A stretch of DNA of 64,000 bases from Leptolyngbya sp. NIES-2104 (GTDB taxonomy: Bacteria > Cyanobacteriota > Cyanobacteriia > Leptolyngbyales > Leptolyngbyaceae): NCBI RefSeq assembly GCF_001485215.1, contig NZ_BBWW01000001.1, positions 2,976,001 to 3,040,000 of the forward strand. Reading direction: 5' to 3'. Below the pieces are notes generated by a model. It was given only the letters and a program-made list of their open reading frames with translations. It made no database searches and was not told where the DNA came from. Below, one piece after another: positions 36,291 through 64,000 of this stretch (its first letter is position 1; the number at the start of each line of letters is the position of its first letter). Made by a program: the position numbers and the translations under genes.

Positions 36291-36296
36291 CCAAAT

Positions 36297-36404: not shown

Positions 36405-36408
36405 CCTT

Positions 36409-36482
36409 GAGAACGTAGTGTAACTGGATAATACATCGGTCTACGAAACCGAAAAGTGAAGGTTCAAATCCTTCCGTTCTCG
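36409..36482 (+). tRNA. tRNA-Arg (ACG)
   Basis: Acceptor GAGAACG/CGTTCTC, anticodon stem TCGGT/ACCGA with loop CTACGAA (ACG), T arm GAAGGTTCAAATCCTTC, discriminator G, encoded CCA at 36483-36485. Confidence 0.92.
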
Positions 36483-36490
36483 CCAAACAT

Positions 36491-39168: not shown

Positions 39169-39308
39169 CTGTTTTCTCGACACTTAATTCTGTTTGCCGT
39201 AATCTCACTTGAACATCTATTTTCAGACTTTCATACTCATGACCCTGTAACTGCATTCTTGATCCTGAAACAGTAGAAGAAAACGTTTTTCCCCAGCTAA
39301 TACTGGAA

Positions 39309-40523: not shown

Positions 40524-40526
40524 ATC

Positions 40527-43838: not shown

Positions 43839-44642
43839 CTATAGCCCGGAAATTTGATGTAATATCGATTTTGAAACAAGATTTTCAAACTGTGAACGGA
43901 CTGCCCGCGCTGCGATCGGATCGGCTAAAAGTACTCCTGCCTCAATGTTTCGTTCATGAGCCGCTTCTGTGAAGTTGGCGGACGTAACCAGCACACGCTC
44001 CTCATCTACCACCACGCACTTGGCATGTAGACAGGCTTTCGCTTCTACCCCGACTGTCAGGGAACGCGGATCGTAAAATACTTCTGGTAAGCGTTTTCCA
44101 GTCCAGATGTCTCGACGAAACGTATTTGCAAACTTTTGCAGCAATATTGATTCTGGTTCGTCACTCCCATGAGGACGTTGAACGTTCAGAAACATCCGTA
44201 CCCGTAGCGATGGATCACTATCCATGCGGCTTGCCAGCCCCTCAAAGAGGGCACGCGCTTTCTCACCTCGATCGATCGCATAACTTGAGATCAATACACT
44301 CCGCTTGGCGGTACTGAATAGTTCACGCACCACAACAGCTGTATCACGACTCTCAGAGCCAATCACCTCCTGCCCCGTCCACACTAACTCAACTCGATCG
44401 CGTACCTGCTGTGATGCCGCTCGCTCTGATGCCAATAGGTTGAGTGTGTAGGCGATGTGGGTAGGAGATGATCCTATTTCAGTCATCCGATTCAGTTCAT
44501 CAATCACATCCAGGCAGAGCCAATTCGGAACATAACCTTTGATCGCGGTAAGCAAATAAGGTGGGCATAGCCTGCCTGTTTCTAGGGCTGCCGCAAGTCC
44601 TACCAAGGCAGGACGGCTGAGTTTGAGAAAGGCAGACATCAT
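43839..44642 (-). CDS. drmC: DISARM protein DrmC (phospholipase D-like)
   Basis: A 267-residue protein with a phospholipase D fold. The HKD motif is LHAKCVVVDEERVLVTSANF at about residues 207-226. An earlier strand SVLISSYAID begins the domain. In class 1 and class 2 DISARM, drmC follows drmB and is described as dispensable for part of the protection. Its start overlaps the drmB stop (ATGA), and it is the last gene of this operon. Confidence 0.88.
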   Translation of the reverse strand: MMSAFLKLSRPALVGLAAALETGRLCPPYLLTAIKGYVPNWLCLDVIDELNRMTEIGSSPTHIAYTLNLLASERAASQQVRDRVELVWTGQEVIGSESRDTAVVVRELFSTAKRSVLISSYAIDRGEKARALFEGLASRMDSDPSLRVRMFLNVQRPHGSDEPESILLQKFANTFRRDIWTGKRLPEVFYDPRSLTVGVEAKACLHAKCVVVDEERVLVTSANFTEAAHERNIEAGVLLADPIAARAVRSQFENLVSKSILHQISGL

Positions 44643-49400: not shown

Positions 49401-49896
49401 GAATGTCTAGCTCTAGTGGTGTATCTTGAGCCTGAATTGGCACCACCAGTTCGGCATGGCAGGGGATACGTTGCCAGGAGCCGATTCGTAACGTCGTTTT
49501 TGTCGTGGCTTCCTCCGATGATTCGGTGGGCAAGGGCACGTAGTCTCCCCAACAAGCCGTGACCTGTAAAGTCTGAGTGTGAGGTGGCACCAGCAGGCTC
49601 ACGCCCATTGAAGATGGGAAGAAGCCTTTACGGGCAGGGCTTTTTTCAGGAATTGCTTCATCATCTCCAACTCCCGCACCGCTAACCGCATCCAGTTCAT
49701 CGTCTCCTGTATCGTCCGATCGCTGCGCTGCTGGTGCGTCATAGGGCACTAGAAACCCGGTGAGATACCACTTGGAAGGCGGTTGGGGAATGATCTCTGC
49801 GGCGTGAAGCTCGTCATCGGGAGCAGGACCGATCAGGTCAAGCTGAAGGGCATCAATCAGGTGCGATCGAACGTCAGTGGGAGTCGTAGATGGCAT
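46495..49896 (-). CDS. drmA: DISARM helicase DrmA
   Basis: The 1133-residue core ATPase of DISARM. Walker A is FFPTGGGKTEAYLGL at about residue 440, Walker B IIQDELHLISGPLGTM. The helicase C-terminal motifs VALATNMISVGLDITRL and QATSRVGRDENRPGLV are clear. The N-terminal 400 residues form the DISARM-specific region. DrmAB bind 5' overhanging DNA and limit entry of unmodified phage DNA. The gene follows an Uma2 gene and is overlapped by drmB. Confidence 0.92.
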   Translation of the reverse strand: MPSTTPTDVRSHLIDALQLDLIGPAPDDELHAAEIIPQPPSKWYLTGFLVPYDAPAAQRSDDTGDDELDAVSGAGVGDDEAIPEKSPARKGFFPSSMGVSLLVPPHTQTLQVTACWGDYVPLPTESSEEATTKTTLRIGSWQRIPCHAELVVPIQAQDTPLELDIPDSKGLKLLVSVRSVSSENLVPAGTRSVSIFLVNQRRPAPNKAPDAAHAFQTSLTIQTEDSLVPRPDLRGGNGEDWDESVADLQYRDDYEFAVGHNVSAIAVVEPGGICRKVWTAWIPTADVEKVIPTQVPGVELGMENLAAAPTPAALRELLHPMVDAYATWIVEQRSKAPTTPKHRAETAKDLLNRAVIANQRIAAGLQAMNDPLVFEAFCIANRSVARAIRQRLTHDQEGVTPESLSAPKWRPFQLAFLLMNIVGIANPEHGDRELVDLLFFPTGGGKTEAYLGLAAFTLVLRRLRNSGIHSAGLSVLMRYTLRLLTLDQLGRAATLICALELERQNDVEKLGKHPFEIGLWVGQAATPNKMGKKGDNDPHSARTRTIAYQNNDRQKSSPIPLENCPWCGTRFTRNSFELLPDANEPNELRVRCISRKCQFNRNQPLPILTVDDQIYRRLPCFIIATVDKFASLPWVGETGALFGQVERFDQDGFYGPCKPGRGQPLSQALPPPDLIIQDELHLISGPLGTMVGLYETAIDALSTLTQGDKRIRPKIVASTATVRRATKQIRALFGRDAVDVFPPPGPDRRDSFFAKTVPATEKHARAYVGVAAQGRSLKVVLLRTYLALLGAAQKDWELAGGGKNPNNPADPYMTLLGYFNSLRELGGSRRIVEDEVNARLTQYSQRQRAGEPEGSFADRKISDLPLELTSRVSTNEVADTKRRLALPFHEKERVDVALATNMISVGLDITRLGLMVVLGQPKTAAEYIQATSRVGRDENRPGLVITLLNVHRPRDRSHYERFQAWHTTFYRAVEATSVTPFSPRAIDRGIAAITVALARLGDCRMTAPIRAIDILQHRKALESVADVIAQRAEMHDKELDAVEADALRQKVKGRVRDLLDTWEHIASQKIMLQYQQEVGQAPPLLFDPLDPELERQPLEARKFKAQRSLRDVEQTVNLWVRNPDGFEVEEDDA

Positions 49897-50053
49897 GAGT
49901 AGCCTGTCAGGAAGGAGGGCACTGATCTCAGAATGCCCACAACTTCCTGATAATCCCGGAAGGTCGCTCAGATTTCACAAAGCTTTGATGAGGCGATCGC
50001 AGAATTTACTGAGCGTTCACGATTTTCGCGACCCAATCAGCGTTTGTTTGCAG

Positions 50054-50641
50054 TTACAGCTTGCCTGCCAGGATTTGAGCGGCGGTCAGGTTGAGGTCTG
50101 GAAAGGTGGGGGATTGAATCAAGTCATCTCCACAAAACTCTGTAGAGTCATAAAATTGACTTTCCAGGATGCAAACAGTAATTTTTGCTTCCAGAGGATC
50201 AACAATCCAATATTCCAGGATTTCTAGCAGCCCATATTCAGCGCGTTTTGAGCGGTAGTCATCAGTTTTTGTGGAGGGGCTAACGACTTCGACGACTAGA
50301 ATTGGAGGCGGCTCGTTGAGGTTGATCACGGCTTCGCGATCGCTCATGGCTTCCCACTGGGCAACCGTTAGAACGGTGACATCGGGAATGCGGGAAGTAT
50401 CCCAATTTCGCCCACGGGGAGAGCGGACACCGACTAGGGCAGGCAGCGCAACCCAAGGTTGCCCGGATTGCGTCAAGGTATCCTCAAGCTGCCGGACTAC
50501 AAAGTGAATGATTGCCCCATGTTTACCAGTTCCCAAACTCATGGGCACCAGTTCTCCATCGACCAGTTCATAGCGCGTGTCTGTGCCGTCATCGTAGGCG
50601 AGATACTCTTCAAAAGTGAGTTTTTGTGTGGCGATCGCCAT
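50054..50641 (-). CDS. Uma2 family endonuclease embedded in the DISARM operon
   Basis: A 195-residue PD-(D/E)XK protein of the Uma2 family. It shows [35 protein letters not shown] (Asp), [17 protein letters not shown] (Glu) and [20 protein letters not shown] (Lys), with all catalytic positions present. The ATG at 50641 is favoured by GAG spacing. It lies between drmMI and drmA, facing the same way, with 52 bases before it and 157 after. It is not a listed DISARM component and may be a hitchhiker or an accessory nuclease. Confidence 0.85.
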
Positions 50642-50693
50642 AAACATAGCTCGTGGTGAAGACTGACGATTTGAGAAGTGCTTCTAGTATAAG

Positions 50694-53600
50694 TTATGCC
50701 TCTAGTCCAGGTAGAGTTGGGGTATTCGATCGCCCAGCCTTCTTTGATTTTGCGCCTTTCGATTTGCCTTTTTTCTCTGCTGACTTGCCGCCTAGAATTT
50801 CTTGTTCGTAACGTTTCTGATTGAGATCGAGCAGTCGCGCCAGCACTTCGTCGTGGGTGGCTTCGTTCCAACGATAGCGATAGGGCTTTTTGCGCTGTCG
50901 TTTGGTAGTTTCGTCGTCCTCTTCTTCTTCGTCTTCGTAGTCAAGCAGGAATTCACATTGGGATTGGATGTCGCTCCACCCGTAGGCATCCAGGACGGCG
51001 CGATCGCATTCTTCATGCAGTTGGCGCAGTCTGAGGATATCGGGATCGAATTCGTTGGGGTCGTGGAAGCGGTTGTAAGTTTGGGTCAATCCTTCGTTGT
51101 TGCGAACCATCAACTCGGCGCGGAATTCATAGTATTGTTTGCCGATCGCTTCTAGAGCGGGATTGGTTTCCCAATTTTCGGGGAAGGGGAAGGTTTCAAA
51201 GCAATCAGAGGGTGTATGGCGAAATCGATCTTCCAAAGATGAGCCAAAAAACTTGCACCAAATTTCATGCAGACGAGATTGAAGTGCCGCGAAGACGGAA
51301 TAGGTATTGCTCGGCATGACTACCAGCGAATCAGAGTAAACCATCCCGCTTGGTAAAAATGCGAATGAGAAATGCTGGCTAACACGAGCAGTAACTAATA
51401 CTCGATCGCACTCCGCGATCGCCCTAACCAATCCTGGTCTTTTCTCTGCATACTGCCACCACCGAATACGCAAAGCATCTCGCTTTTGTAAATCTCGCTC
51501 AGGCTTGACCTTTTCTTTCACAATTTGCATTAGATCAGGGTACTCCCATGCCTCCTCTTCGCTCATATCAAAAAAGTTGATTATATAGCGATGGTGAGCA
51601 TGATTTGGGTTACTATTGACTTCTTCACCGCCGATGTAGGGAAAGATGCGTTCTTGATTGCGGGGAGCTTCTTCGATTAAACGATGCATTTCAGCGATCG
51701 ACGTTGCATCTTCATTGGTGTCATCAAAGGTGAAACCCATGCCCAAAACATAGCTACCAACAAAACTTTTATCAGCGTTCGCCAGCACTGTATTTGGATT
51801 GTTGTTTCCACCTTTAGGAAATAGAAACGCAGAAATAAACGGAACTTCTTTACCGTCTAAAATTTTCGCTTCTTTATACAACCCCTTGTAGATATGAATC
51901 ACGCTTACTACAACAGCCGCTTGTCCTGCCCACTTCACCCGTTTACGAGCGTTGTAGATTGTGCCACCCTGCTCACAAATCCAGCGTAACCCCGTGCTGC
52001 GCGTATCGCCTTGAGCGATCGTATTTGTGGCGACTAACCCCAGCGTGCCACCTTGCTTAAGCAACTTGAATGCTTGTCGAAAGAAATAGGCAACTAAATC
52101 AGAATTGCCGTGAGATTCGGGATATTCTTCCTTTAACCAATTGAGATAATTTTCCGCATTGCCATTGATGATAGTGTTCTTGCCTGCAAAGGGTGGATTG
52201 CCGATAATGCAGTCAAACCCTGGATTCTCACGCTCAAACACCTCCAGAAATTCATACTCCCAATTGAACGGAGTAACCCCACGTTTCCTATTCCGAAGTC
52301 GGTTTGAAGCTTGTAGTACCTCTTCAGAGTTTGCCCAACCCGTTTCGTAAGCGAGTAACTTGCCACCATAATCCTGTAGTTTCTGCTGCCGCTGTTTACT
52401 GGTCTTGCCTTCTAGCCCTGCTTGGATGATTGCATCTGCCTCTAGACCTTCCTTTGCCGGGTTTACATCCAATCCCTCTGCGTCATAAATTTTCAGAAGT
52501 GCTAAAAATGCTTGGAGTCTTTCATCCCGCTGCTTTTGGGTAGTTCCCTCAAAAAAGGCTGACACCATCAGATCGGCTGCCATTCTGGAACTATGAAGTA
52601 AATCCTCAAATACTCTTAAACGACAAAATTTTTGAGTCGCATCAGCATCCGTTTGAGTATCTGAACTTTGAATCTCTGACCGAGCATCTAAAATCCTTGC
52701 TGTCTCTGCTGCTTCTGCCGCTTCTGTAGCTAAACGTCGTTGATGATCATCCAGCGTTAACTGATAAAACTGCTCATTCCTGAACTTACGAATCCGCTTA
52801 CGCGGCACTCCTACTAACGAATCACCCCATCTTAGCGAGTGATCCAAGAAGGTAAACGGCTGGTGCTTTGAGAGCGTAAATAGCCATAGTGATAGCTTCG
52901 CTAAATTAACAGCAAATAGATTTTTGTCTACACCGTACAAACACCGCTGCGCCACCAATCGCCGTGCAAATAATAACGGCTCCTCACCCTCTGGCAAGTT
53001 TTCCGGCAACCCATCCCGGTTCCACGCCACCTCAACCGCATCTGCCAACTGACGACAGGCTTCTACCAAAAATGCTCCACTTCCCATCGCAACATCACAT
53101 ACCTTGAGCGACAGAATCTGCTCCGCTGTGGGCTGTTCCCCCAATGCTTCTAACACTGGGCGCAAAGCTGTTCGCACAATCGGTTCTGTCATGACTCGCG
53201 GTGTATAGTGCGATCCCGTTTTTCGGTTTTCATCATTCGGCTGCAAATATAGTGCCCCAGCAGTTAGTAAATTCGGTGTGCGTGGTGAAACTTTTCGACC
53301 CAACGCTGCTGTTAAATCTGCCGCTGTTTTTGCTGACTTCAAGTCGCCTAAAGCCTTCCCCGTAACCTTACACGCTGCCCACTCTTGTAAAAGCTTGGGG
53401 CGATCGCTTGGTTTGGCTGCTAGGAGTGTTTCCAGATTGATCACGACGTGCTGTGGGCGCACTGCAATCGATGTGCCTTCCGCCCGCTCAACCGCATAAC
53501 CCGCAACGCCAGTGTAAACAGAGCCGATTTGCTCCACATCCAGCGATCGATACGACAATCGCTCTCCTTTCAGCATCAACAGCCGATCAAGCATTCGATA

Positions 53601-54794
53601 CACGACACCATCAGGAATGCGAGGTGGTTCGATCGGTTCTCCAGAGGTAAATTGAGTGCCTTGCGATCGTCCCTCCAAAAACGCATACTCATCCGGGTCA
53701 AACAATTGCCCATGTCTTGCAGGTAGATACTCTGGAGTTTCTCCACCGCCGTCATACACTAGCCGAAACAAACTCAACAGCCACGCCCACGCACCATATC
53801 GCTGATCGATCGTGTCCGGGTAGTTACCAGCATCAGCGCGGAGCCGTTCAAACAAACCTGAAACGGCATAGTTGTGCTGATACAGATCGTCCCCCGGCAT
53901 CAGCCCCTCGTCTTCGGCATACAGCAGGAATACCAGCCGCATCAGAGTCGTGATCAGCCCGCCATAGATATGCTGTGGATTTTGAGTCGCCATTTCACCT
54001 AGCAGCCTGCCATTGGTCGCCGCATCCGCCATCTGAAAACCGCGCAGCAGTTCCCACAGCGCATCCACAACTTGATTTGCCAGCGTGGTCGAAACCTCTG
54101 CCTGATACTTGCGGCTCTCTTCCAACAAATCCTTTAGCCGCCGTCCCACAGGAGCCATAAACAGCCGATAGGCAGACAGCAGCATCTCCAGCGCACCTAG
54201 AATCAGCCGCCCCGATACCTCACACATTGCCTGCACTGGGAACGTTAGATGACCCGACGATTCACCTTTCGGTGCGTATACTAGTCGAACTTCTGTGCCG
54301 TTGCATAAAATACCGATCGGAACACCCGTCTCACGCAGCAATCGCTCAAACTTTGCCTCGGGACTGGCAGACCATTTCCCAGCCTTCTCGTGAACCGTAT
54401 CTACTTCATCCAGGCTTGCCCCCGGAGCAATCACCTGAATCAGCATCAGCCAATCCTCACCGTCCTGCACCGCATAGCTGGGTGCAAGAATTTCACCATA
54501 ATCTGGCAACGCCACTTTCAAATCTTTGAGGTCATCGCCGCTAACCAGATCGCTTGGCTCCCAGTCCAACACATTCACTGTGAATGCGGGGAAGTCAAAA
54601 ATCCAGGCGCGATTATCGTCAACCAACTGCAAATCGCGGCTAATCACCGATAACAGCGATTGTTGCAGGTCTACCACGTTGCGATTGACGATCGCCTGTG
54701 CTTTGATCAAGGCTGGCGGCGAGACGACCAAACCGACAGGTTGCAGGAAGCCCAACCACTCTTTATGCCGCAAAATCTCTGGATCGACTGCCAT
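50694..54794 (-). CDS. drmMI: DISARM class 1 adenine methyltransferase DrmMI
   Basis: This large N6-adenine methylase marks host DNA in class 1 DISARM. About 1366 residues. SAM motif I is VCDVAMGSGAFLVEACRQL, the catalytic motif IV IIGNPPFAGKN. The C-terminus (residues about 1090-1300) contains target-recognition-like segments and ends in a Lys-rich tail. The ATG at 54794 has AGGGGAG 5 bases upstream and is preferred to the TTG overlapping the drmD stop. It is the second gene of the operon, following drmD by 11 bases. Confidence 0.9.
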   Translation of the reverse strand: MAVDPEILRHKEWLGFLQPVGLVVSPPALIKAQAIVNRNVVDLQQSLLSVISRDLQLVDDNRAWIFDFPAFTVNVLDWEPSDLVSGDDLKDLKVALPDYGEILAPSYAVQDGEDWLMLIQVIAPGASLDEVDTVHEKAGKWSASPEAKFERLLRETGVPIGILCNGTEVRLVYAPKGESSGHLTFPVQAMCEVSGRLILGALEMLLSAYRLFMAPVGRRLKDLLEESRKYQAEVSTTLANQVVDALWELLRGFQMADAATNGRLLGEMATQNPQHIYGGLITTLMRLVFLLYAEDEGLMPGDDLYQHNYAVSGLFERLRADAGNYPDTIDQRYGAWAWLLSLFRLVYDGGGETPEYLPARHGQLFDPDEYAFLEGRSQGTQFTSGEPIEPPRIPDGVVYRMLDRLLMLKGERLSYRSLDVEQIGSVYTGVAGYAVERAEGTSIAVRPQHVVINLETLLAAKPSDRPKLLQEWAACKVTGKALGDLKSAKTAADLTAALGRKVSPRTPNLLTAGALYLQPNDENRKTGSHYTPRVMTEPIVRTALRPVLEALGEQPTAEQILSLKVCDVAMGSGAFLVEACRQLADAVEVAWNRDGLPENLPEGEEPLLFARRLVAQRCLYGVDKNLFAVNLAKLSLWLFTLSKHQPFTFLDHSLRWGDSLVGVPRKRIRKFRNEQFYQLTLDDHQRRLATEAAEAAETARILDARSEIQSSDTQTDADATQKFCRLRVFEDLLHSSRMAADLMVSAFFEGTTQKQRDERLQAFLALLKIYDAEGLDVNPAKEGLEADAIIQAGLEGKTSKQRQQKLQDYGGKLLAYETGWANSEEVLQASNRLRNRKRGVTPFNWEYEFLEVFERENPGFDCIIGNPPFAGKNTIINGNAENYLNWLKEEYPESHGNSDLVAYFFRQAFKLLKQGGTLGLVATNTIAQGDTRSTGLRWICEQGGTIYNARKRVKWAGQAAVVVSVIHIYKGLYKEAKILDGKEVPFISAFLFPKGGNNNPNTVLANADKSFVGSYVLGMGFTFDDTNEDATSIAEMHRLIEEAPRNQERIFPYIGGEEVNSNPNHAHHRYIINFFDMSEEEAWEYPDLMQIVKEKVKPERDLQKRDALRIRWWQYAEKRPGLVRAIAECDRVLVTARVSQHFSFAFLPSGMVYSDSLVVMPSNTYSVFAALQSRLHEIWCKFFGSSLEDRFRHTPSDCFETFPFPENWETNPALEAIGKQYYEFRAELMVRNNEGLTQTYNRFHDPNEFDPDILRLRQLHEECDRAVLDAYGWSDIQSQCEFLLDYEDEEEEDDETTKRQRKKPYRYRWNEATHDEVLARLLDLNQKRYEQEILGGKSAEKKGKSKGAKSKKAGRSNTPTLPGLEA

Positions 54795-54805
54795 TTTTGC
54801 TCCCC

Positions 54806-57800
54806 TCAACCCGAAATTGGATGCAGATAAACGATGCCGACAGGTTCAACTCGTGTGGCTTTGACCTGATAGGTAGCTTTAATTCGGGCGGGTTCACTGA
54901 CCAGTTCAACTTCTAGCGCCTGCAATCGCCGTTCCCAATGGCGACGATCCGCTTCTAGCTGCTGGGCTTCTTCAAAAATGGAGAGCTGGCGATCGCCTGC
55001 GATTTCTGTTTGTCGTTTCACGATGCGATCGCGCTGTTCTTCTAAAATTGCCCGCATCTCCGCTGCCTCCTTCTGTCCCCGTGCCTCCAGCCTTTTCTGA
55101 ACACGTTCAATCAGCGCGGTAGCACGGCGATCTAAATGAGACCTCAGCTCTTCGACATCCTGCGCTGCCGCTTGGCTAAGACGCTGCTGCACTGATTCCG
55201 GCACCTGACGCAAACGCGGACTCGCCAGCGAGGTTTCCAAAACTTTCAACACATCATCTTTTTCGCTTTCACCCAGCGGACGCAGTTTTGATCGCCCCCG
55301 CGCCTCTGGTGCGATCCACTCCGCTGCCACTGCGATCACTTCGTCATGCAACCGGGAAGCGCGATCGCCATATAGTGACAGCCGCCCCAGCACAATCACA
55401 CTCGGAATTGGGCGATCGGTCAGGCAAACACAGGCGCGAGTCAATTCATCATGTAAAAATCCTTGCGCCAAAAACCGCGACAGCAATCGCTGCACGACGC
55501 GATGTTCCAGATGCAAATGCACCACCTCACCATCCAACGACCCCGGATCACGAAACACGACTGGACGAATCGGGGCTTCCCGCCGCCAATCCCACAACTT
55601 TTGACTGCGTTTGCGAGGCGCTCTTAGGGTATCCAGCGTCGTTGCCCAGCTTGGGTCAGCCCCAAACCGCTGATCAAGTGCAGGAATATTCCATTTTGCT
55701 GTCGCAGGCTCGTGCGCTGCTGCGTTTAGATCAATCGGTTGGAGGGAGTTAGCCCCTAAAATCTCCAGGGATGCAGAAATGGCATCGCGGAAGTGGCGAT
55801 CGTCCAGTCCCAACCATTTCTGCGACTCGCTCAACATTCCTTGCAGCAAAGCATTCTGCTGTTCTAATTCCTGTCGCCGCAGCCTGACTTGCTCCAGTTC
55901 TTCCGTGATAATTTCAGCATTGAGCAATGGTTCATCAATCTGATCTGCTTTAGCGATCGCCGCTTCTAGCCGCTCTGCCTCCCCATGCCGAATGCCATCT
56001 GCCAACAATCGCGCTACATTGCGCTCCAACACAGGCGATAAGCTGCCTAATTCCCTTTGAATGACCTCAGTTTTTTTCACCAGCACATCCAGTACCCGGT
56101 CTTCCGTGCGCTGAGGCAACACAAAATAGTGGCAGCGGACAACGGGCGATCGCTGAAGTTTGCGATCGATCCGCCCATTCCGTTGCTCAAGCCTGGATGG
56201 ATTGAACGGTAAATCAGCGTGAAACAGGTCAGCACATTGGTTTTGGAGATTGACCCCTTCTCTGGCTGCGTCAGTCGCGATCAGAATTCGCAGCGGATGT
56301 TTGGCAGGATCGCTGTTGAAGGCAAGCTTGATTTCTTCCCGTCGATCGTCTCCCATACCCCCGTGAAACACCGAGATCCGATAATGTTCTTGATCAGAAC
56401 CTGCAATGATCGTCTGTAGCTGTTGCTGGAGATAGCGTTTGGTATCGGTGTATTCAGTGAAAATGATGACGCGGCGATGATTCCACTCTGCGCCAGCCGT
56501 GCCTAACTCAGGGCATTGGTGATCTCGAATCCATTGCGCTAACTTTTGAATGCGAGGATCGGGTAGATGACGGGCGGCGTTGGCAATCTGCGTCATTTCC
56601 TCCAGCAGTTCTAATTCCCGTGCGGATGGAACACAAGCATCTTGATCGGTTGCCATCCGCATCTGAGCGTTTTCTTCTGCTTCCACCTCGTCTTCGGTTA
56701 ATTCGGCGCGATCGTCATCAGCCCCTGCTGGCTCTTGCAGCAAAGGAAACGATTGAGTATTTCTGCTTTTAGGCGCTGCCTGTGCGGCTGCGCTGGCTTG
56801 TTTGGTGTTCGCCGCTTCGCTGCTACGTTTCGCGATCGCCGTTTGATGAACCTTCAACGTTCGGGCAAATGCCTCGATCGACGAAAGTAGCCGCTTTTGC
56901 AGCGACAACAGCACTAATGCCGCTGCCCGCTGAGCCGATTTGGGCGCAGACTTGAGCCGTTCTTCCCGCAGTTGCCGATATTCTTGCAACAACCGGGACA
57001 ACTGAAGCTCTGGAGCATCATCGGCTAAGTTATCAATGCTGACACGAACCACAATCCGCTCTGGAAAATCATCGCCAATCTCACGCAGATCACTTTTGAG
57101 CCGTCGCACCATTACCGCATCCAGCAGTTTGTGATTTCGCACGGGTACGCCTCGGCAGAACCGTTGTGGATCGAGAATTTCAAGCAAGGCGGCAAAACTA
57201 TTCGAGTGACCGTTGTGCGGCGTTGCAGATAAAAATAATTTGTGTTCAAAGCGGGGAGCTAAATCCCGTACAGTTCGCGTCAGTTGTGAGTCGATCGCGT
57301 ACTTGGCTCCACTTGCCGGTGCCGCGTTGTGCGCCTCATCCAGAATCAGCATTGCCCCTGCTGAGAATTCTCCTAGCCAATCTCGGAGCGGAGCTGCGTA
57401 AGTCTCATCGCGCAGCAGCGCGTGGGAGATGATGAAGCGAGTATGAGTTGTCCAAGGGTTAATACCATAGCCGCGCTCACGCCGCCGACTGGCGACAAAC
57501 TCGCGATCGACAATCAGAAACGTCAGTCCAAATCGGCTCTCCATTTCTTCTTGCCACTGCCGCACGACTGAAGGCGGACAGGAGATGACGACCCTCCGTA
57601 CCTTTTGGCGCATCAACATCTCACGTAGAATCAGCCCTGCCTCGATCGTTTTTCCCAGGCCGACATCGTCGGCAATGAACAGCCCGACTCTGGGCATCAG
57701 CAAGGCTTTCCGCAATGGTTCAAGCTGATAGGCTTTCACCTCGATACCTGCCCGGTAGGGAGCCTGAAACAGCTTTGGATCTGTAGAGGTAACGCAACTC

Positions 57801-58066
57801 CAGCGCAGCGTGTGAAGGTAAGCCGAAAACAGTTTGGGGTTATCGAACCCGCGTACAGCGACGGATTCCCAGGAAGTTGTGCCAATATGTCGGGCATCAA
57901 CTTCGCGCTCCCAAAGCACTTCCAGCGCTTCGCTCAAGGCATCATCGTCCAGGCAGGCAAGCCGCACCCGCGTATCATCTTGAGGTGAATGCTTCGCTAG
58001 GACCTCCTCAACCAAATATTGCCGGGAGCGAACGCGCACAATACTTCCAACCGCAACAGCCGTCAT
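54806..58066 (-). CDS. drmD: DISARM SNF2-like helicase DrmD
   Basis: A SNF2-family ATPase of about 1086 residues that defines class 1 DISARM. Walker A is DDVGLGKTIEAGLILRE, the DEAH box MLILDEAHNAAP, motif III FLSATPHNGHSNSF. The C-terminal helicase lobe has ATDAAREGVNLQNQC and RNGRIDRKLQRSP. The last 150 residues are a charged coiled coil. It is the first gene of the operon; the ATG at 58066 has a GGGTGAG-like ribosome site. Confidence 0.9.
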   Translation of the reverse strand: MTAVAVGSIVRVRSRQYLVEEVLAKHSPQDDTRVRLACLDDDALSEALEVLWEREVDARHIGTTSWESVAVRGFDNPKLFSAYLHTLRWSCVTSTDPKLFQAPYRAGIEVKAYQLEPLRKALLMPRVGLFIADDVGLGKTIEAGLILREMLMRQKVRRVVISCPPSVVRQWQEEMESRFGLTFLIVDREFVASRRRERGYGINPWTTHTRFIISHALLRDETYAAPLRDWLGEFSAGAMLILDEAHNAAPASGAKYAIDSQLTRTVRDLAPRFEHKLFLSATPHNGHSNSFAALLEILDPQRFCRGVPVRNHKLLDAVMVRRLKSDLREIGDDFPERIVVRVSIDNLADDAPELQLSRLLQEYRQLREERLKSAPKSAQRAAALVLLSLQKRLLSSIEAFARTLKVHQTAIAKRSSEAANTKQASAAAQAAPKSRNTQSFPLLQEPAGADDDRAELTEDEVEAEENAQMRMATDQDACVPSARELELLEEMTQIANAARHLPDPRIQKLAQWIRDHQCPELGTAGAEWNHRRVIIFTEYTDTKRYLQQQLQTIIAGSDQEHYRISVFHGGMGDDRREEIKLAFNSDPAKHPLRILIATDAAREGVNLQNQCADLFHADLPFNPSRLEQRNGRIDRKLQRSPVVRCHYFVLPQRTEDRVLDVLVKKTEVIQRELGSLSPVLERNVARLLADGIRHGEAERLEAAIAKADQIDEPLLNAEIITEELEQVRLRRQELEQQNALLQGMLSESQKWLGLDDRHFRDAISASLEILGANSLQPIDLNAAAHEPATAKWNIPALDQRFGADPSWATTLDTLRAPRKRSQKLWDWRREAPIRPVVFRDPGSLDGEVVHLHLEHRVVQRLLSRFLAQGFLHDELTRACVCLTDRPIPSVIVLGRLSLYGDRASRLHDEVIAVAAEWIAPEARGRSKLRPLGESEKDDVLKVLETSLASPRLRQVPESVQQRLSQAAAQDVEELRSHLDRRATALIERVQKRLEARGQKEAAEMRAILEEQRDRIVKRQTEIAGDRQLSIFEEAQQLEADRRHWERRLQALEVELVSEPARIKATYQVKATRVEPVGIVYLHPISG

Positions 58067-58538
58067 TTGCACTCACCCAAAAAAACACGCAGCAAAATTT
58101 TCCGCATCCACAGCGCATCACATACAGTGATCCGCAGCGCACGGAACGTTCTTAATGGTTGGAACGATCACTAGACCCGTTGGCTGTCCTTTAGCCTCTG
58201 AGGTAGGCGATCACCAGATGTCACATGAGATATGATTCCCACAAAAAGCTTGACAATCCCAGATAGCGATTGTCAGGAGTAATATTTGTCACTTAGCAGA
58301 ATCCTCATATTTGAACCAGCAACGATGAAGCGCAGCAATGCTGGATAGGAGGGGAAGCTAAGCTTATTGCGATAGCTTGTATAAAATTAATACTATTCCA
58401 TTTCTGGTACGGTCGTTTCTACCAGAATCTCGCCTACTTTGACGACTCAGTTCTACCCCAAGCGACTTAATTCTGAAGAAGTATGAGGGTTGCAATAAGC
58501 AAAAGAATATAGCCTCGTTTTGGTTTAAAGGAGTCTGA
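58067..58538. other. Intergenic region upstream of DISARM
   Basis: About 470 bases separating the six-gene operon from drmD. A TTGACA at about 58251 is a plausible -35, and the region should hold the DISARM promoter. No ORF with a proper start, no tRNA and no strong hairpin seen. The 65-codon frame at 58364-58561 overlaps the kinase stop and is dismissed. Confidence 0.5.
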
Positions 58539-59087
58539 TTAAGCTGATTCAGTATATTCAAGCCAATCAGCTACCTGCTTAACACTCTCCCTTAGTAGAC
58601 AATTGCTATCAATTACTAGATCAGCTGTGTGAGCTAAAGCAGCTTTTACCTGTTGTTCAGTAGAGTCTTGCTCTAAATGCTGATATTTCTCCATGCTGGT
58701 CACTCCCCTTTCGAGCAATCGAACTGACCGCGTAGCCTCATCAACAGCGACGAAAATCAGATACAGTTTCATGGGTGCAACGATCTTTCGCAAGCTATCA
58801 AGCGCTTTCACGTGACGTATGCCATCGATAATGATGGGCTGTCCAACCTGCCAACCTGCTTGGGCTAGAACTGCGCGACAAAATCCTTCCAAATCTCTTT
58901 CTACTAAATCTGCCCCGATCGCCTGAAGCACTTCTCGCGATTCTGTAAGCCCTTGACTACGGGCAACAGATCGAACGTAATCTCCAAAACTGACGCGAGA
59001 CCACTGGAGAACCTTCGCGAGTTCTTCGGAAAGGGTTGATTTACCACTGGCAATACTGCCTGAAAAAGCGAGGACGGCTGGCTGCAT
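58539..59087 (-). CDS. P-loop nucleotide/nucleoside kinase-like protein
   Basis: A 182-residue kinase of the dephospho-CoA/nucleoside-monophosphate kinase type. Walker A is FSGSIASGKSTLSEEL (about 8-23), a substrate-side loop VSFGDYVRSVARSQG follows, then IIIDGIRHVKALDSL and the lid RLLERGVTSMEKY. Its fold suits phosphorylation of a nucleotide or modified base. It is the last gene of a six-gene operon, 5 bases after the ASCH gene. The substrate is unknown. Confidence 0.78.
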   Translation of the reverse strand: MQPAVLAFSGSIASGKSTLSEELAKVLQWSRVSFGDYVRSVARSQGLTESREVLQAIGADLVERDLEGFCRAVLAQAGWQVGQPIIIDGIRHVKALDSLRKIVAPMKLYLIFVAVDEATRSVRLLERGVTSMEKYQHLEQDSTEQQVKAALAHTADLVIDSNCLLRESVKQVADWLEYTESA

Positions 59088-59092
59088 AGAAC

Positions 59093-59602
59093 TTAAAGCT
59101 CAAGTTTTAGCTGTTGATCGCAAGACTGTAGAACAACCCACCCCCGGCGATCGCGTTTCGCAAATGGGATTGGTTCAATGGCTTTAACAGATTTAATTCT
59201 CATGAGAGTTGCATAGCAAGCAGCCTGCCGCTGCTGCCAGAATTCTGGATTTTGAGCACACAAAGCCTGGGTAAAGTCGCGTCGAATCGTTTCCCAAGAT
59301 TCTGGGTCAAGTTCGTAAAACCAGCAATGGGTCACTTGGCAAATTCCGACGATAGGCCCACAAGATTGCTTTAGCAGGATCACATCCCCTTGCTCAACCT
59401 GGTTATACGGTGCAAATCGACGGGTAGCAAATCGAGATTCAATCGTCTTTTTGCCTTCTAAGATGAACTGGAGATACGGCTCTACAAAAACGCCTAGATG
59501 TAGCGTGAATGGCAGCGCAGTCTGTTCCGGCAGGGGAGACAGGTAACTTTCCCAAAATACATCCCCTTCCACAGCGGACTGTAGCTCTCTAACTAGCGGC
59601 AA
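59093..59602 (-). CDS. ASCH-domain protein
   Basis: About 170 residues with an ASCH (PUA-like) fold: LGVFVEPYLQFILEGKKTIESRF, then GDVILLKQSCGPIVGICQV, and a closing RRGWVVL strand. ASCH proteins bind RNA or modified nucleotides, and some act as nucleoside amidohydrolases. The start is uncertain. The frame is open to an ATG at 59713, but that would overlap the upstream methyltransferase gene by 125 bases, so TTG at 59602 (or GTG at 59572) is preferred. It lies between the methyltransferase and the kinase genes. Confidence 0.75.
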   Translation of the reverse strand: MPLVRELQSAVEGDVFWESYLSPLPEQTALPFTLHLGVFVEPYLQFILEGKKTIESRFATRRFAPYNQVEQGDVILLKQSCGPIVGICQVTHCWFYELDPESWETIRRDFTQALCAQNPEFWQQRQAACYATLMRIKSVKAIEPIPFAKRDRRGWVVLQSCDQQLKLEL

Positions 59603-60890
59603 GAGCGAAGTTTGTATCGTTCCAGTGGTCTTCAAAGAGTAGGTTCTCCTTTTGTTCAGTGCTAATGAGGGACAAGATTTGTTCGGTTGTTTCGGAAATG
59701 AGTACCACTTCATTCGGATGCAGCGATCGCTTCAAAGACACTTCCACGACATCATGAGGTTGGTCTCCGGTCGAAATCGCCTGCAAAACTTGCCAAAGTA
59801 TACTGCGCCCTCGACAAATGAAGATTCGATTTCCGGATGTCCAGATGTCGGCTAATTGCCGCCGGGGATCTCGACGACTAACGGTGGTGAGCACATCGCC
59901 CGGTAAGATTGGCACTAACTTGGGATTTTCAAACTCTGAGCTAGACCAAGGACGAACTCGAATTCGCACACCGAGCAAATTAACTTCTGCCCAAATATCT
60001 TCCCGCCTGACAACTTTGGGACGGGGAAGCTGAGTAAGTTTTTTGCGCGAAAAGATTGCTAAATCTCCTCGTCTCCAATCCCGTTCCACAGCAGGAATTC
60101 CTGCTACTCTGAACGCATTACGCTCAAATGCAGGTGTTAGGTAGGAAAGCGACAGTTCTTCTCGACGAACAAGCTCAAGTCCGAGTCGGTTTGCCCATGC
60201 CAAGGTATTTTTCCACTCCTGATCAATTCCAGGTCTGGTGCCAATTGGTGGCAGACTCGCAAAAATATGCCCACCCAAGTGGCAAAATTGGCAGGCGCTC
60301 CATAGAAATGACTGAATGTGTTCGGGATACCAGGGCGGATCCATCATGACGGCTGCCGCTGACCGCGTTTGAATCTCATCTTTCAACAGATCAGACTGCA
60401 CAACCTGAGAGCGAGATGTTGATAAGTTTAAGTAATTTGTCATCGTTGCATTCGCCTCAAGCAAAATCATGGAGCGCTGCCAAGACAGTGTAAGTCCACC
60501 TCGAAATAGACTGGGAGTTCCAAGTAGTACTATCGTATCATTAAAAGCTGTGAGTTCCTCACAATATTTCAACAAATACTCAACGGATGCATCAGTAAAT
60601 CGCCAGTCAAAATCGAGCGGATGCGGCAGCGGTAATCCGATTTGGTAGCGGGCGTAGAAAGATCTGGTCAACGTCCGCTTCACTGGATTCGTCAGTTGCT
60701 CTAAAGCACTCTGAGGCAGAGACGAACCAGCACTGAGTCGTTGCAGTGCGTTGAAAGCAACAATTGGATCAACGCTGGGGAGTGCTTTGATTAACTGATC
60801 AAACGTGTTCACTCCAGATGCGAGCGCATGTAAAATCCAGCGTTCAACTGACTGTTCAAACGCTTGTGATTCAATTTTCGTGATTGTCAT
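59589..60890 (-). CDS. DPPW-motif methyltransferase-like protein
   Basis: A 433-residue protein with a helical N-terminal domain (about 1-110) resembling a winged helix. A Rossmann-like core begins IVLLGTPSLFRGG. The motif AAVMMDPPWYPEHIQSF at about 185-201 is the DPPW signature of adenine-N6 or cytosine-N4 methyltransferases. The SAM-binding G-loop is not canonical, and the acceptor (DNA, RNA or small base) cannot be told. The C-terminal 130 residues are a separate, strand-rich domain. Its start overlaps the radical SAM stop by four bases. Confidence 0.72.
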   Translation of the reverse strand: MTITKIESQAFEQSVERWILHALASGVNTFDQLIKALPSVDPIVAFNALQRLSAGSSLPQSALEQLTNPVKRTLTRSFYARYQIGLPLPHPLDFDWRFTDASVEYLLKYCEELTAFNDTIVLLGTPSLFRGGLTLSWQRSMILLEANATMTNYLNLSTSRSQVVQSDLLKDEIQTRSAAAVMMDPPWYPEHIQSFLWSACQFCHLGGHIFASLPPIGTRPGIDQEWKNTLAWANRLGLELVRREELSLSYLTPAFERNAFRVAGIPAVERDWRRGDLAIFSRKKLTQLPRPKVVRREDIWAEVNLLGVRIRVRPWSSSEFENPKLVPILPGDVLTTVSRRDPRRQLADIWTSGNRIFICRGRSILWQVLQAISTGDQPHDVVEVSLKRSLHPNEVVLISETTEQILSLISTEQKENLLFEDHWNDTNFALAAS

Positions 60891-61897
60891 TGCAGTTGGT
60901 TTGTGCGTAAAGGGATAGCTGTGATTGGTTGAGATCGTTCAATACTGGAGAAACGATTCTCCAATTCTGTTTTCCAGGCTTCGATCGCCAGGTACTGGTT
61001 CTTCAATGCTGCTTGGGTTGCATCATCCAAGCGTCCCTTGACCGGAGTGAACGTTTGAATTTCCAGCGGAACCGTTCGGAGTGGAAGGTTTCTATCGATT
61101 TCCTGAAGTCGATCAACAAAGCGAGCCATATCTACGGCAACTTCTGAGTCTACTGGTGTTGTAAACGTGGCATAGGCGTAGAGATCGATCCCTAAACTCA
61201 GTAATCGCTTCATCAATTGAAACTGCTGGTCAAAAAGAGCGGCTTCAGCACGAGTATTAAATGCAAAAGATTCGGAGTTAAACCCTTTAAAACAACAAAC
61301 TCGACCGTAATTAGGGTAGGATGCCATCAGTTCGAGATCGGCATCTGACAGGAATCGCCAAAGGTAATCGTTACTGAGATTGTCGTCTGACCAAAGATAA
61401 ACTTGTCGATCCAAGCCCCGCTGTTTCAATTCAGCCATCATCCAGGGAACCCATTCTGGAACCAAGTCAGGTTGTCCTCCTGTCAGGTCAATCATTGGGG
61501 GAGGCTCAGGCTGTCCGAGGTACAGATCGATTAGTTGTGATGGACTCATCCAGTCAGAATATTTGCGATTTGCAGCTAGCAACTCGAACGGTACGTAGCA
61601 ATACCAACACCGCCAATTACAAGCTGCACTTTGAAAAACCTGCGCTCGAATCATGCTGGCTGCTCGTAGATCGAGTGCGTTGCAGGCTGGATCGATCGGT
61701 AATGGGTTGGACAACCATACATCGCTGCTTGATCGTCGAAAGTGTCGAATACGCCCAAAGCCTTTGCAGTTCGGAGGCTCGGTCAGATCATTTTCTTGCT
61801 GCGTATTGTGGAAGTTTGTGATCAGCAACTGTTTATTCCGCAAATTCACAGACGCTTCTCGATAGCGTACAGATAGAGCCTCAGTGTTGATCACCAT
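60887..61897 (-). CDS. Radical SAM enzyme
   Basis: About 336 residues. The iron-sulfur motif is CNWRCWYCYV (C-x3-C-x2-C) at about residue 93, and the SAM-binding region IDLTGGQPDLVPEWVPW holds GGQ where GGE is usual. The layout is that of a short, single-cluster radical SAM enzyme such as QueE or an activase, without a SPASM domain. The ATG at 61897 has GGAG 11 bases upstream and overlaps the previous gene by 17 bases; GTG at 61942 is less likely. The substrate is unknown. Confidence 0.8.
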   Translation of the reverse strand: MVINTEALSVRYREASVNLRNKQLLITNFHNTQQENDLTEPPNCKGFGRIRHFRRSSSDVWLSNPLPIDPACNALDLRAASMIRAQVFQSAACNWRCWYCYVPFELLAANRKYSDWMSPSQLIDLYLGQPEPPPMIDLTGGQPDLVPEWVPWMMAELKQRGLDRQVYLWSDDNLSNDYLWRFLSDADLELMASYPNYGRVCCFKGFNSESFAFNTRAEAALFDQQFQLMKRLLSLGIDLYAYATFTTPVDSEVAVDMARFVDRLQEIDRNLPLRTVPLEIQTFTPVKGRLDDATQAALKNQYLAIEAWKTELENRFSSIERSQPITAIPLRTNQLQ

Positions 61898-62552
61898 TAC
61901 AGTTTTTACTCCGTCTGTTTTGATGTTTAGTATCTGATTCACCGGACTGACTGCGAATGGCTGGAATCTTCTCTCCCTTGTCTGTCAGAAGCGGAAATCG
62001 TTCACCAATGAACCTCATTCCCAAGTTAGACAAATACGATATTTCATGTTCTGTGAGCGATCGATCTTGAGAAATGCCATACCAGTACTCCATACACTTG
62101 CGACAACAAGAAGCAGTCGCGTGCTGGGCAAAGTGAACTGCGTTGACTTTAGCTGAATCCTCCACAGGTGTCTGGCGACCATCAAAACCGTTGGCGGGTG
62201 AACCAACAGATTTGCGAATCTGCTTCTCTACTGCCGTCTCCATCCCGCTCACTCCTTTTCGTCGCGCATAGTTCTCGACTTTCTGAGGGATCTTGTTTGT
62301 CCAGTAGTGTTGACGGATGCGCTCATTTTTCAAGGCAGCGATCGTATAGTCAATGTCTCTAGGATCAAGCTTGTGTAATCGCTCCCAATCGAAGGGAGCC
62401 GACTCATCACACGATCGACACTGACCCACTGTGTTCGCTGCCTTTTGTTTTCGCGTCGGTTTGTAGGCGTGCTGCCCATTTTTGCAGTCTGAACTGGTAC
62501 ATTTCAGCTTGAGCGGTTTTAACTCCTCCTCAACGTTCCAATCATCCGACAT
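61881..62552 (-). CDS. DUF4186-domain protein with N-terminal Cys clusters
   Basis: This 223-residue protein has two parts. The N-terminal 60 residues carry CTSSDC and CRSC pairs, a probable zinc ribbon. The rest matches DUF4186: GSPANGFDGRQTP, then VHFAQHATASCCRKCMEYW and a LTEHEISYL helix. DUF4186 has no known function, but its conserved His and Cys pairs suggest a metal site. It lies between the HTH-peptidase gene (21-base gap) and the radical SAM gene (overlap), so it belongs to the same operon. Confidence 0.72.
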   Translation of the reverse strand: MSDDWNVEEELKPLKLKCTSSDCKNGQHAYKPTRKQKAANTVGQCRSCDESAPFDWERLHKLDPRDIDYTIAALKNERIRQHYWTNKIPQKVENYARRKGVSGMETAVEKQIRKSVGSPANGFDGRQTPVEDSAKVNAVHFAQHATASCCRKCMEYWYGISQDRSLTEHEISYLSNLGMRFIGERFPLLTDKGEKIPAIRSQSGESDTKHQNRRSKNCNGDQH

Positions 62553-62573
62553 TGCGTTTAACCTCCATAACTC

Positions 62574-64000
62574 CTAAAGTTCCTGCTGAGGCAAAGGATC
62601 TGACAAGGCTCTCATTAAGAGCGCTTGATCAACCTCATTCAAAATTCCAAAGTTGATTTTCTCTAGGAGTACGTCGCGAGCAATCTGCCACGGATCACTG
62701 TCTTCCGTTTGTAGATTGGTAGCAGCACCCCACCAGTTTTCACCCTGAAGCGATAGCCGATACGCCATGTAATTGGCTAAAGCTCCAACCGATACATTCT
62801 CTCTAGCTGCAACTTTAGGAACGACATTTTTGAGGCGTTCAATGCTGCCTTTCGCTTCTTGGGTACACATCTTAACCAAACCCTCTTTGCGCCCTTCAAG
62901 CTGAATGTGTTCTGCAAATTTTGTAGCGGTCTTCTCTTCTTCTGAATCTTGCCGATCTTGTGCAATGTCCCCTTCTTCAACAATCGTTCGTTCGAGGCGC
63001 TCTGGTTCTTGGGCAGCATGCCAGAGTTCGTGAAGAAGGTCGAGTAACCAACGATCTGAAGACTGGGTTCGCTGCTTCAAAACAATTACATTCCGACCAT
63101 TGACACGCCAGAATGCACCATGAAATGCGCCTGCGTCTTTGAGCGGCAGCACAGGAATTCCCAGATTCCAAACATATCGCAAAGCATTTGAGAACGTTAG
63201 TTCACCGTAGGTTGAACAAATTGCTTCACGAACTTCTTTAGGATTTGTTGGAATCGGTTGCATTGGCAGATTTGCTGTAGTCTCCAGCACAAGCAATGCC
63301 AAGAAATGAGCATAGACTGTGTACGCGTTCAACCGTTGCTGATTTGCTTTTGCGGTGACCTTAAAGTGAACAGCTCCAAGGGGAGCCAAGTTAAGCTGAA
63401 GCGGTTTAGAACTGAACAAATCAGCCAGCGACCATCCAAACACGCGCCTTAAAGCAGTGGCTGTGCGAAGCACCAGACCATTCGTTGAAGTCTCGCCTTC
63501 ATTTCTATCGTCAGCACTCAAAGCAGGGAAAAAACGGTTGAGGATTAGATCGCGATCGATCCCAGCCTGACTCAAGCGACTCAACAAGTCAGCAGGTGAA
63601 ATTTTAGGTAGCAAAATCTCTTCCCGCATTTGAATACCGATTGCCCGACTGACTTCTACCAATCGCGCAAAACTGGCAGAGGTATATTCTGTCTCTTCGT
63701 AACGCTGGATCTGCTGCTCTTTCAACCCCAATCGCTCAGCCAAGTCTTTCTGAGTCAAGCCAGCAGCAATTCGTGCCTTAATCAAAGCACGCGGGAGTGC
63801 TTCAAGCGAGTCCAATTCCAACACTGCTTGTTGCCCCTCCTTCAATGCCTCATACTCTTCAAGTTGAGCACGCAGTTCGGCAAGCTGTGACTCCATTGCC
63901 TCTTTTTCGGCTTTCCGCAGCAATGGGTGAACGAATTGATCCTGTTGTGATGAAGCCGACAGTTGAGCAAGGGCATCTGAAAATTTTTCAATTTGAGCCT
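62574..64000 (-). CDS. HTH + ImmA/IrrE-type metallopeptidase, 5' end outside window
   Basis: The frame is open to the right edge (before the TTG at 63923 it reads ...SSQQDQFVHP), so the start is beyond the window. A coiled-coil N-terminus leads to an XRE helix-turn-helix (LTQKDLAERLGLKEQQIQRY). A long linker precedes the zinc protease motif LLHELWHAAQEPE (HExxH) with a downstream acidic ligand region EEEKTATKFAEH. Such proteins sense a signal and cleave a repressor or act as antitoxins. As the first visible gene of the operon it may control it. Confidence 0.83.
   Translation of the reverse strand, partial: AQIEKFSDALAQLSASSQQDQFVHPLLRKAEKEAMESQLAELRAQLEEYEALKEGQQAVLELDSLEALPRALIKARIAAGLTQKDLAERLGLKEQQIQRYEETEYTSASFARLVEVSRAIGIQMREEILLPKISPADLLSRLSQAGIDRDLILNRFFPALSADDRNEGETSTNGLVLRTATALRRVFGWSLADLFSSKPLQLNLAPLGAVHFKVTAKANQQRLNAYTVYAHFLALLVLETTANLPMQPIPTNPKEVREAICSTYGELTFSNALRYVWNLGIPVLPLKDAGAFHGAFWRVNGRNVIVLKQRTQSSDRWLLDLLHELWHAAQEPERLERTIVEEGDIAQDRQDSEEEKTATKFAEHIQLEGRKEGLVKMCTQEAKGSIERLKNVVPKVAARENVSVGALANYMAYRLSLQGENWWGAATNLQTEDSDPWQIARDVLLEKINFGILNEVDQALLMRALSDPLPQQEL

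Follow-up and report, generated by a model that had tools for sequence, protein, structure and literature searches.

A conserved seven-gene operon of Leptolyngbya sp. NIES-2104 looks like an apparently undescribed mobile nucleotide-altering pathway, perhaps antiviral

What does a tightly packed run of genes that share no enzyme class do in a cyanobacterial genome? The question is raised by one end of a 64,000-nucleotide (nt) stretch of Leptolyngbya sp. NIES-2104 (contig NZ_BBWW01000001.1, positions 2,976,001 to 3,040,000; hereafter the window), whose minus strand carries an operon with the 5' to 3' order A-B-C-D-E-F-G. The genes encode a DUF6932 protein (A), a helix-turn-helix (HTH) protein with a protease-like domain (B), a DUF4186 protein (C), a radical S-adenosylmethionine (SAM) protein (D), a predicted N-transferase (E), an ASCH-domain protein (F) and a P-loop kinase-like protein (G). 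An initial annotation of the window had listed six minus-strand genes with named families, and Pfam matches and conserved motifs bear all six out; the seven-gene operon extends one gene further, since A precedes B beyond the window edge and was missed because it lies outside the window. The operon sits on the main contig of the 6.39-Mb genome, and the closest homologues of D are cyanobacterial. B runs past the window (start 64049) and is overlapped by A by 19 nt. The start of D that matches its homologues, the ATG at 61897, gives overlaps of 17 nt with C and 4 nt with E, in agreement with the previously described range of 4-17 bases; the E/F junction lies outside that range, the longest open reading frame (ORF) of F overlapping E by 125 nt. 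The true start of F is probably further in, and an annotated Aulosira homologue begins later, with a 47-nt overlap. The genes are unrelated in enzyme class, yet as a set they are far beyond chance, because their order recurs in dozens of loci and adjacent genes overlap by a median of 4 nt at four of the six junctions. Taken from its sequence and context, the operon looks like an apparently undescribed mobile nucleotide-altering pathway, perhaps antiviral.

A collection of species genomes was scanned with a profile of D, which confirmed 88 relatives, and 80 loci of the 88 were analysed. Together with the window locus and five plasmid loci they form a synteny set of 86 loci, in which iterated profiles found A in 60, B in 78, C in 78, D in 86, E in 70, F in 76 and G in 78. 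The exact order ABCDEFG is present in 33 of the 86, and the rest deviate through added or lost genes, contig ends or strand. Among the 65 loci with room, that is, with at least 3.6 kb before and at least 3.2 kb after D, the counts were 48, 60, 59, 65, 58, 62 and 63 for A to G, and a DUF4160 gene replaces A in 11 of the 17 A-less ones. Upstream of B, in 77 loci, we found DUF6932 in 56, DUF4160 in 13, another gene or none in 6 and a contig edge in 2. Median junction gaps were -4 (A/B), +3 (B/C), -4 (C/D), -4 (D/E), -28 (E/F) and -4 nt (F/G), the overlaps being overestimates because starts were taken from the longest ORF. In two loci (L035 and L039) D-G are encoded on one strand and C and B on the other, and the operon therefore has two parts, A-B-C and D-E-F-G. 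Pairwise distance matrices of B to G in 62 loci correlate at 0.62-0.86, against a maximum of 0.23 for any pair in 500 permutations. Searched against 72,556 plasmid records, D, F and G each matched the identical 7; all of the six that were inspected carry the seven genes in A-G order, including a Roseovarius THAF8 plasmid in which no coding sequence is annotated at E and an ORF search recovers it. The expectation, set beforehand, that homologues of these genes travel together is thus borne out: the same order recurs across loci and the genes are co-inherited. Judged by these comparisons, the operon is a conserved unit co-inherited in fixed order across phyla.

All seven proteins retain signature residues across their homologues. 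In A, whose sole Pfam match is DUF6932, G69, S70, D80 and D82 are at least 98% conserved and make up a GSF...DxD motif like that of nucleotidyltransferases; a PDB profile search gave no match. Among 77 sequences of B, H340, H344 and E372 are at least 98% and E341 at least 90% conserved, forming an HExxH...E zinc-protease signature. No peptidase profile rose above its cut-off for B in the Pfam scan; the HTH domain and the HExxH...E site identify B as a predicted XRE-type protein with an ImmA/IrrE-like protease domain. C belongs to DUF4186, with 81 bits to PF13811 (cut-off 25 bits), and combines an HAxAxCCRxC core with an extra N-terminal, zinc-ribbon-like set of cysteines (C18, C23, C45 and C48); one stand-alone DUF4186 protein aligned with C shares the core and lacks the N-terminal set. 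The model of C (predicted local distance difference test, pLDDT, 90) had no PDB match and no Foldseek match at E of 0.001 or below, with a best VIA Z of 2.0, and a PDB profile search gave no credible match; such a lack of matches is no sign that the fold is new. F contains an ASCH domain and has a structure-profile match to PH0355 (0.0065). G matches 3lw7, which is adenylate-kinase-related, over profile positions 6-173 of 182 (2.7e-13); its P-loop, conserved motifs read as GDxxR and DGxxR of nucleoside monophosphate (NMP) binding, and full-length profile match place it among putative NMP-kinase-like proteins.

The two SAM-type proteins, D and E, resemble known enzymes without joining their families. 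D carries CxxxCxxC at residues 108-115, GGQP and SDDNLS, with C59 and C217 also conserved (numbering of the ORF from 61942); C108, C112 and C115, at least 98% conserved in 86 sequences, constitute the radical SAM cluster motif. The window protein, the one member compared with PF04055, matches it at E 1.2e-5 and stays under the cut-off (26 bits against 29.5). Thirteen NCBIfam families of radical SAM type match D members weakly, most often ArsS (17 of 53) and viperin (16 of 53, best 2e-5), and a PDB profile search returned 5wgg (E 0.01) and QueE (E 0.26). A true viperin (17.2 bits, E 0.0022, against the NF038283 cut-off of 180 bits) and a true ArsS (24.6 bits against the TIGR04167 cut-off of 300 bits) were both rejected; by its motifs D is a radical SAM enzyme outside the named families. 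The model of E (433 amino acids, pLDDT 92) is closest to BpsA, an aminopropyltransferase that makes branched-chain polyamines (Z 23.4, root-mean-square deviation 3.3, 273 aligned, residues 4-339), with METTL5/PH1948-type methyltransferases second (Z about 18). The likeness to BpsA covers the overall modelled fold including the N-terminal domain, whereas E has a DPPWY motif and an extra C-terminal domain with a conserved Arg, and lacks the GDDD motif given as a feature of BpsA in passages of PMC12979288. A true BpsA was rejected: no GDDD occurs in the 433 residues, the window E has no BpsA_C match, and 2 of 55 members match (best 0.0046). The fold resemblance, as modelled, stands despite these failed motif and profile tests. 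Among the 55 members of E, 20 have an N6-adenine-Mlase Pfam match (E up to 0.01, best 1.9e-8). Because the GDDD motif is absent, E probably transfers a methyl or other SAM-derived group to an amine, and not an aminopropyl group from decarboxylated SAM.

A 24-bp palindrome with the consensus CAACACAAC-N6-GTTGTGTTA precedes gene A. With up to one mismatch, a spacing of 0-14 and a search range of -200 to +60 of the called A start, it was found in 50 of 59 loci, one contig-edge locus being uncounted, against 15 of 3565 equal-length background windows; fixed spacing and profile-placed A starts raised this to 55 of 59. The 65 fixed-spacing sites in all 86 loci comprise 56 at called A genes, 1 unrelated, and 8 in six loci (L011, L035, L054, L069, L083 and L084) where the called start lay too far out, as profile-placed starts confirmed. 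The genome itself (6.4 Mb) holds three exact sites, two of them side by side at this operon, and the third, C1:5314094, seems to lie inside a called ORF and is taken as a chance match. Viral contigs gave 15 pattern matches, about the chance expectation for 16 fixed bases (an estimate made with no control set). Where DUF4160 leads the operon, TTAACA-N4-TGTTAA is found in 7 of 13 loci, all Bacteroidota or Ignavibacteriota, and four Chloroflexota loci show a AACGTATACGTT-like palindrome (by eye; one partial); the first gene and the operator therefore change together. Control by the HTH-peptidase had been proposed in the initial annotation; the palindrome conserved upstream of the operon supports it, and binding of that site by B is putative. 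Since B carries an HTH domain and the palindrome is conserved at the operon start, abutting the probable start of A, we infer that B is a putative repressor that very likely autoregulates the operon. ImmR/ImmA and DdrO/IrrE are repressor-protease switches, and cleavage of a repressor by ImmA/IrrE proteases is a precedent for the lifting of repression. The operon shares with them an XRE repressor, an ImmA/IrrE zinc protease and a palindrome at the operon start, and differs in that a single protein joins HTH and protease and has DUF6932 or DUF4160 as its partner. A known RNA element was also considered and rejected, with 0 Rfam matches at the gathering threshold in 20 kb around the operon (L002).

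The distribution of the cassette is wide and patchy. A tree of D from 78 of the 80 loci spans 14 phylum-level groups, among which Nitrososphaerota is represented by a single metagenome-assembled genome (MAG), and requires 26 changes of phylum label, where the minimum is 13 and shuffled labels average 53. Phylum labels thus cluster and several groups are split; this pattern does not by itself prove transfer, and some MAG contigs may have been binned wrongly. Caution applies to the archaeal locus (L018), in which a transposase-like ORF (by appearance, not profile-scanned) interrupts E. D is present in 2 of 58 related genomes (self included), in 0 of 7 other genomes of the genus and, in an even sample of the phylum, in 2 of 292, one being self and the other a weak partial match. 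Six of the 7 cassette plasmids were typed as conjugative. In Elainella (L012) the cassette adjoins a TniQ gene, and in L011 a TnsC-type gene follows it. The passages of PMC9679502 on Tolypothrix PCC 7712 report an 18,401-bp insertion absent from PCC 7601 that carries, at the place of the cassette, DUF4186, ASCH, HTH, AAA, helicase, recombinase, DDE integrase and ExeA genes. D has no relatives in viral contigs or phage records, and DUF4186 has only 3 weak matches in phage records; a phage-derived base-modification island was accordingly rejected.

Genes of nucleotide metabolism accompany the cassette in several loci. In five (L034, L052, L053, L059 and L082; three scanned against Pfam, the other two by profile) C and D are separated by a DCD/dUTPase-fold gene, which also occurs near the cassette in two more (L021 and L028), a MazG-like gene lies between D and E in one (L070), and a dGTPase-like HD gene stands directly behind G in four cyanobacterial loci (L011, L013, L014 and L017). 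With its hydrophobic C-terminal segment, the DCD-type insert seems membrane-anchored. In a scan of the flanks (113 of 127 upstream and 117 of 122 downstream proteins, at most two per side per locus, 180-999 amino acids, the omitted ones being doubtful or short), the matches listed include prokaryotic Argonaute (pAgo), AbiE, restriction, dGTPase, RES, HNH, integrase and conjugation genes. In this genome the defence context consists of DISARM and a Cas4-like/pAgo pair. The radical SAM protein, the kinase, the N-transferase and the accessory nucleotide genes together suggest a defence-associated pathway for a modified nucleotide, and an inducible pathway of this kind is the parsimonious account. 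A modified nucleotide or base as the product had been proposed in the initial annotation and is plausible. Our reading, tentative though quite possible, is that the operon is a self-contained, horizontally moving and inducible unit that makes a modified (deoxy)nucleotide for antiviral or anti-plasmid defence. Infection or DNA damage would activate proteolysis by B and lift repression, as with ImmA/IrrE, and A, or DUF4160 in its place, may serve as the partner, sensor or toxin of B. D with C would then perform radical chemistry on a nucleotide, E would alkylate an amino group of the product, and G would phosphorylate the modified monophosphate, with cell kinases completing the triphosphate; F may bind or edit the modified nucleotide. 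The product might poison invader replication or transcription, as the 3'-deoxy-3',4'-didehydro-nucleoside triphosphates (ddhNTPs) of viperin do, while the products of the occasional dGTPase-like, DCD/dUTPase-fold and MazG genes would reduce the pool of natural nucleotides that compete with it. Prokaryotic viperin (pVip) is a radical SAM enzyme that makes ddhNTPs and is found with a nucleotide kinase. The cassette resembles it in a radical SAM gene adjoining a nucleotide kinase in defence contexts and in a weak similarity around the cluster motif, and differs in that D scores far under the cut-off for viperin, possesses an N-terminal region of its own and is accompanied by further conserved genes. 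A bolder version, which we hold to be doubtful, is a new class of prokaryotic innate immunity in bacteria and perhaps archaea, in which infection-triggered B would unleash a radical-SAM/DUF4186 pathway whose modified deoxynucleotide blocks invader DNA synthesis while accessory enzymes deplete the natural competitor.

Several observations weigh against a defensive modified nucleotide. The putative product and the anti-phage role are read from sequence and context, D lies far below the curated cut-offs (17 of 180 bits for viperin, 25 of 300 for ArsS), and DNA or RNA might just as well be the substrate of F and E. Some loci lack E, F, C or other genes, and the full set is therefore not always required; the absence of E is genuine in some, as five of the seven E-less loci have the next cassette gene within 108 nt after D. 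The DCD-type insert seems to lack the deaminase glutamate, so that it is probably not a standard deaminase and may sense rather than convert. In 7 loci that have D apart from A-B-C, or no A-B-C at all, the DUF6932-type operator was not found before D (two of the 7 are DUF4160-type, where it is not expected), and operator control of D in split loci was rejected (0/7 examined). Among the matches listed, the flanks, scanned with no control set, also hold thiolase, electron-transfer flavoprotein, dihydroxy-acid dehydratase and glycosyltransferases, so that any defence-island enrichment is putative.

The most serious rival, which we judge rather unlikely, is that the operon modifies a nucleic-acid base in host DNA or in tRNA or rRNA, marking self or shielding a target from nucleases; the radical SAM protein and the N-transferase would build the modification, ASCH would read it and the kinase would prepare the precursor. 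E offers the DPPWY motif, N6-adenine-Mlase matches (20/55) and a METTL5/PH1948-like structure for this, and passages of PMC7641849 describe ASCH/PUA domains as modified-base binders. Nevertheless, no nuclease, glycosylase or transglycosylase recurs in the gene set, and E, which would be the likeliest nucleic-acid modifier of the set, is missing from 7 of 65 loci with room and has its closest fold in a small-molecule enzyme, BpsA (Z 23.4). That resemblance fits instead the biosynthesis of another small molecule (a nucleoside antibiotic, a polyamine conjugate or a modified peptide) unrelated to immunity, as do a TylF-type O-methyltransferase gene that adjoins the cassette in two loci (L018 and L021) and the E. 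coli DUF4186 gene yneG, which passages of PMC9283627 place in a sad-glsB operon linked to putrescine use. No transporter occurs among the recurrent neighbour clusters, conjugation genes apart, however, and plasmid carriage and defence genes in the flanks argue the other way; we find this explanation decidedly unlikely. Slightly less so, yet still quite unlikely, is a toxin-antitoxin or abortive-infection unit with A (DUF6932 or DUF4160) as toxin, B as antitoxin-protease and C-G as modulators. The exchange of A for DUF4160 at the same position (13 of 77 loci with B), the XRE-ImmA architecture of B, and the A homologues that precede a small operon gene on other plasmids with no D-G (5/5 regions of 21 records) all suit it, but five conserved enzymes, C-G, far exceed the needs of a toxin pair, and C and B can stand on the other strand from D-G, as in L035 and L039. 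Finally, the unrelated enzyme classes might suggest a chance packing of housekeeping genes. This is extremely improbable and was held refuted by conserved synteny, correlated distances and the conserved operator, the order being kept over 14 phylum-level groups with a shared operator and co-inheritance, and the presence being patchy (2/58 relatives, self included; 0/7 other genus genomes).

That no system could be named for this gene set in the initial annotation agrees with our comparison. None of the six cassette proteins scanned against PADLOC 2.0 (2023), A not being scanned, exceeded a weak, superfamily-level match, the best being the kinase to VakA (34 bits) and an HTH region to RmrA (29 bits). 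The Dpd 7-deazaguanine system, which consists of a DpdA-type transglycosylase and partners, was rejected, as the same six proteins gave no Dpd match at E 0.1. DISARM is a neighbour in this genome, and none of the six matches a Drm model at that threshold. The (PIN)-GNAT-EVE operons also combine ASCH and AAA_17-family P-loop genes in a mobile, toxin-antitoxin-like operon, as passages of PMC7641849 describe, whereas the cassette proteins scanned have no EVE, GNAT or PIN and carry radical SAM, DUF4186 and N-transferase domains instead; this comparison is by gene family. The literature covered gave no description of the gene set, with preprints, subscription papers and newer defence catalogues outside its scope, so that a recent independent report may exist; the nearest published item, PMC9679502, in the passages concerned places some of these genes in a strain-specific insertion and names no system. 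DUF4186 and DUF6932, both listed by Pfam as of unknown function, now stand inside a conserved operon, and a function for DUF4186 (E. coli yneG) becomes concretely testable. The palindrome provides a regulatory handle for finding the trigger, and the operon may prove to be the source of a new natural nucleotide with antiviral action or of a new base modification.

Table 1 Positions of the operon, its operator copies and two neighbouring elements, in window numbering.
Feature	Position	Strand	Basis or remark
Gene A, DUF6932, nucleotidyltransferase-like	ORF 64031-64504, probable start 64477, outside window	-	PF22014 4.4e-38; motif GSF..DFD
Gene B, XRE-type HTH with C-terminal putative ImmA/IrrE-like zinc protease, 491 amino acids	62574-64049 (window part 62574..64000)	-	HTH_3 8.5e-10
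Gene C, DUF4186	61881..62552	-	PF13811 8.1e-23
Gene D, radical SAM	60887..61897	-	start fitted to homologues; longer ORF begins at 61942
Gene E, predicted class I SAM-type N-transferase, DPPWY motif	59589..60890	-	motif, modelled fold
Gene F, ASCH domain, motif GKKTIESR	59093..59713	-	PF04266 4.6e-6
Gene G, P-loop NMP-kinase-like (AAA_18)	58539..59087	-	Walker A, SFGDYVR, DGIRH
Operator copy 1	64479-64498, one base from probable ATG of A		palindrome pattern
Operator copy 2	64517-64536		palindrome pattern
DISARM (DrmC, DrmB, DrmA, DrmMI, DrmD), neighbour, not part of system	43839..58072	-	Drm protein matches
Mu/Tn7-like transposase (rve, Mu-transpos_C) with AAA partner, neighbour	36970..41234	-	beside six-tRNA cluster 35792-36485

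The operon lies, as had been recognized, directly upstream of DISARM, for which DrmD, DrmMI, DrmA, DrmB and DrmC were identified. A special tie between the two is not supported. DISARM was tested apart because the flank scans omitted proteins of at least 1000 amino acids. When the 85 other loci (L006-L090, 1.39 Mb) were searched by tblastn with the five Drm proteins of the window, five loci showed a single partial match each, at 30-36% identity, and none showed two Drm genes. The operon as a part of DISARM was rejected on the missing Drm matches of the six scanned cassette proteins and the lack of recurrence in these loci. Upstream, on the plus strand and divergent from A, lie genes for a Cas4-like nuclease and a class II pAgo (window 64636-67658; L002 15636-18658), and beyond this pair a ResIII/helicase-type gene. 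pAgo homologues flank the cassette in L011-L014 and a Cas4-like gene does so in L012-L014; the association therefore recurs in cyanobacteria. The Mu/Tn7-like transposase is a possible carrier of the island. In an empty-site search the tRNA-cluster region matched 8 of 8 genus genomes and the right flank 4 of 8, mostly short or elsewhere, so that no clean insertion junction is demonstrated. An interspersed repeat of about 200 bp lies at about 33553-33760 of the window; the query that contained it had 70 matches in its own genome (self included) and fewer in each genus genome.

Other genes were observed around the cassette and its homologues. Plasmids without D, F and G include 21 records with A homologues, and in all five regions inspected (L097-L101) the DUF6932 gene stands directly before a partner gene, which is annotated as HTH in three and unnamed in two; in L099 the pair lies beside reverse transcriptase and helicase genes. 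The TylF-type O-methyltransferase gene adjoins the kinase/ASCH genes at L018 13233-14150 and L021 6851-7825, two distant loci. A DUF763-type gene is directly behind G in three alphaproteobacterial loci (L009 13330-14592, L072 8894-10168 and L079 12311-13561). Two plasmid loci (L006 13609-20315 and L007 13664-20370) carry a 1012-amino-acid unknown protein and a 1223-amino-acid helicase behind the cassette; the pair, also found in L102, gave no PADLOC match at E 1e-8 for its L006 copy and is possibly another undescribed system. Finally, a cluster of HNH-like proteins with an M-x-CIFCK motif lies beside the cassette in five loci (L023, L027, L033, L042 and L079).

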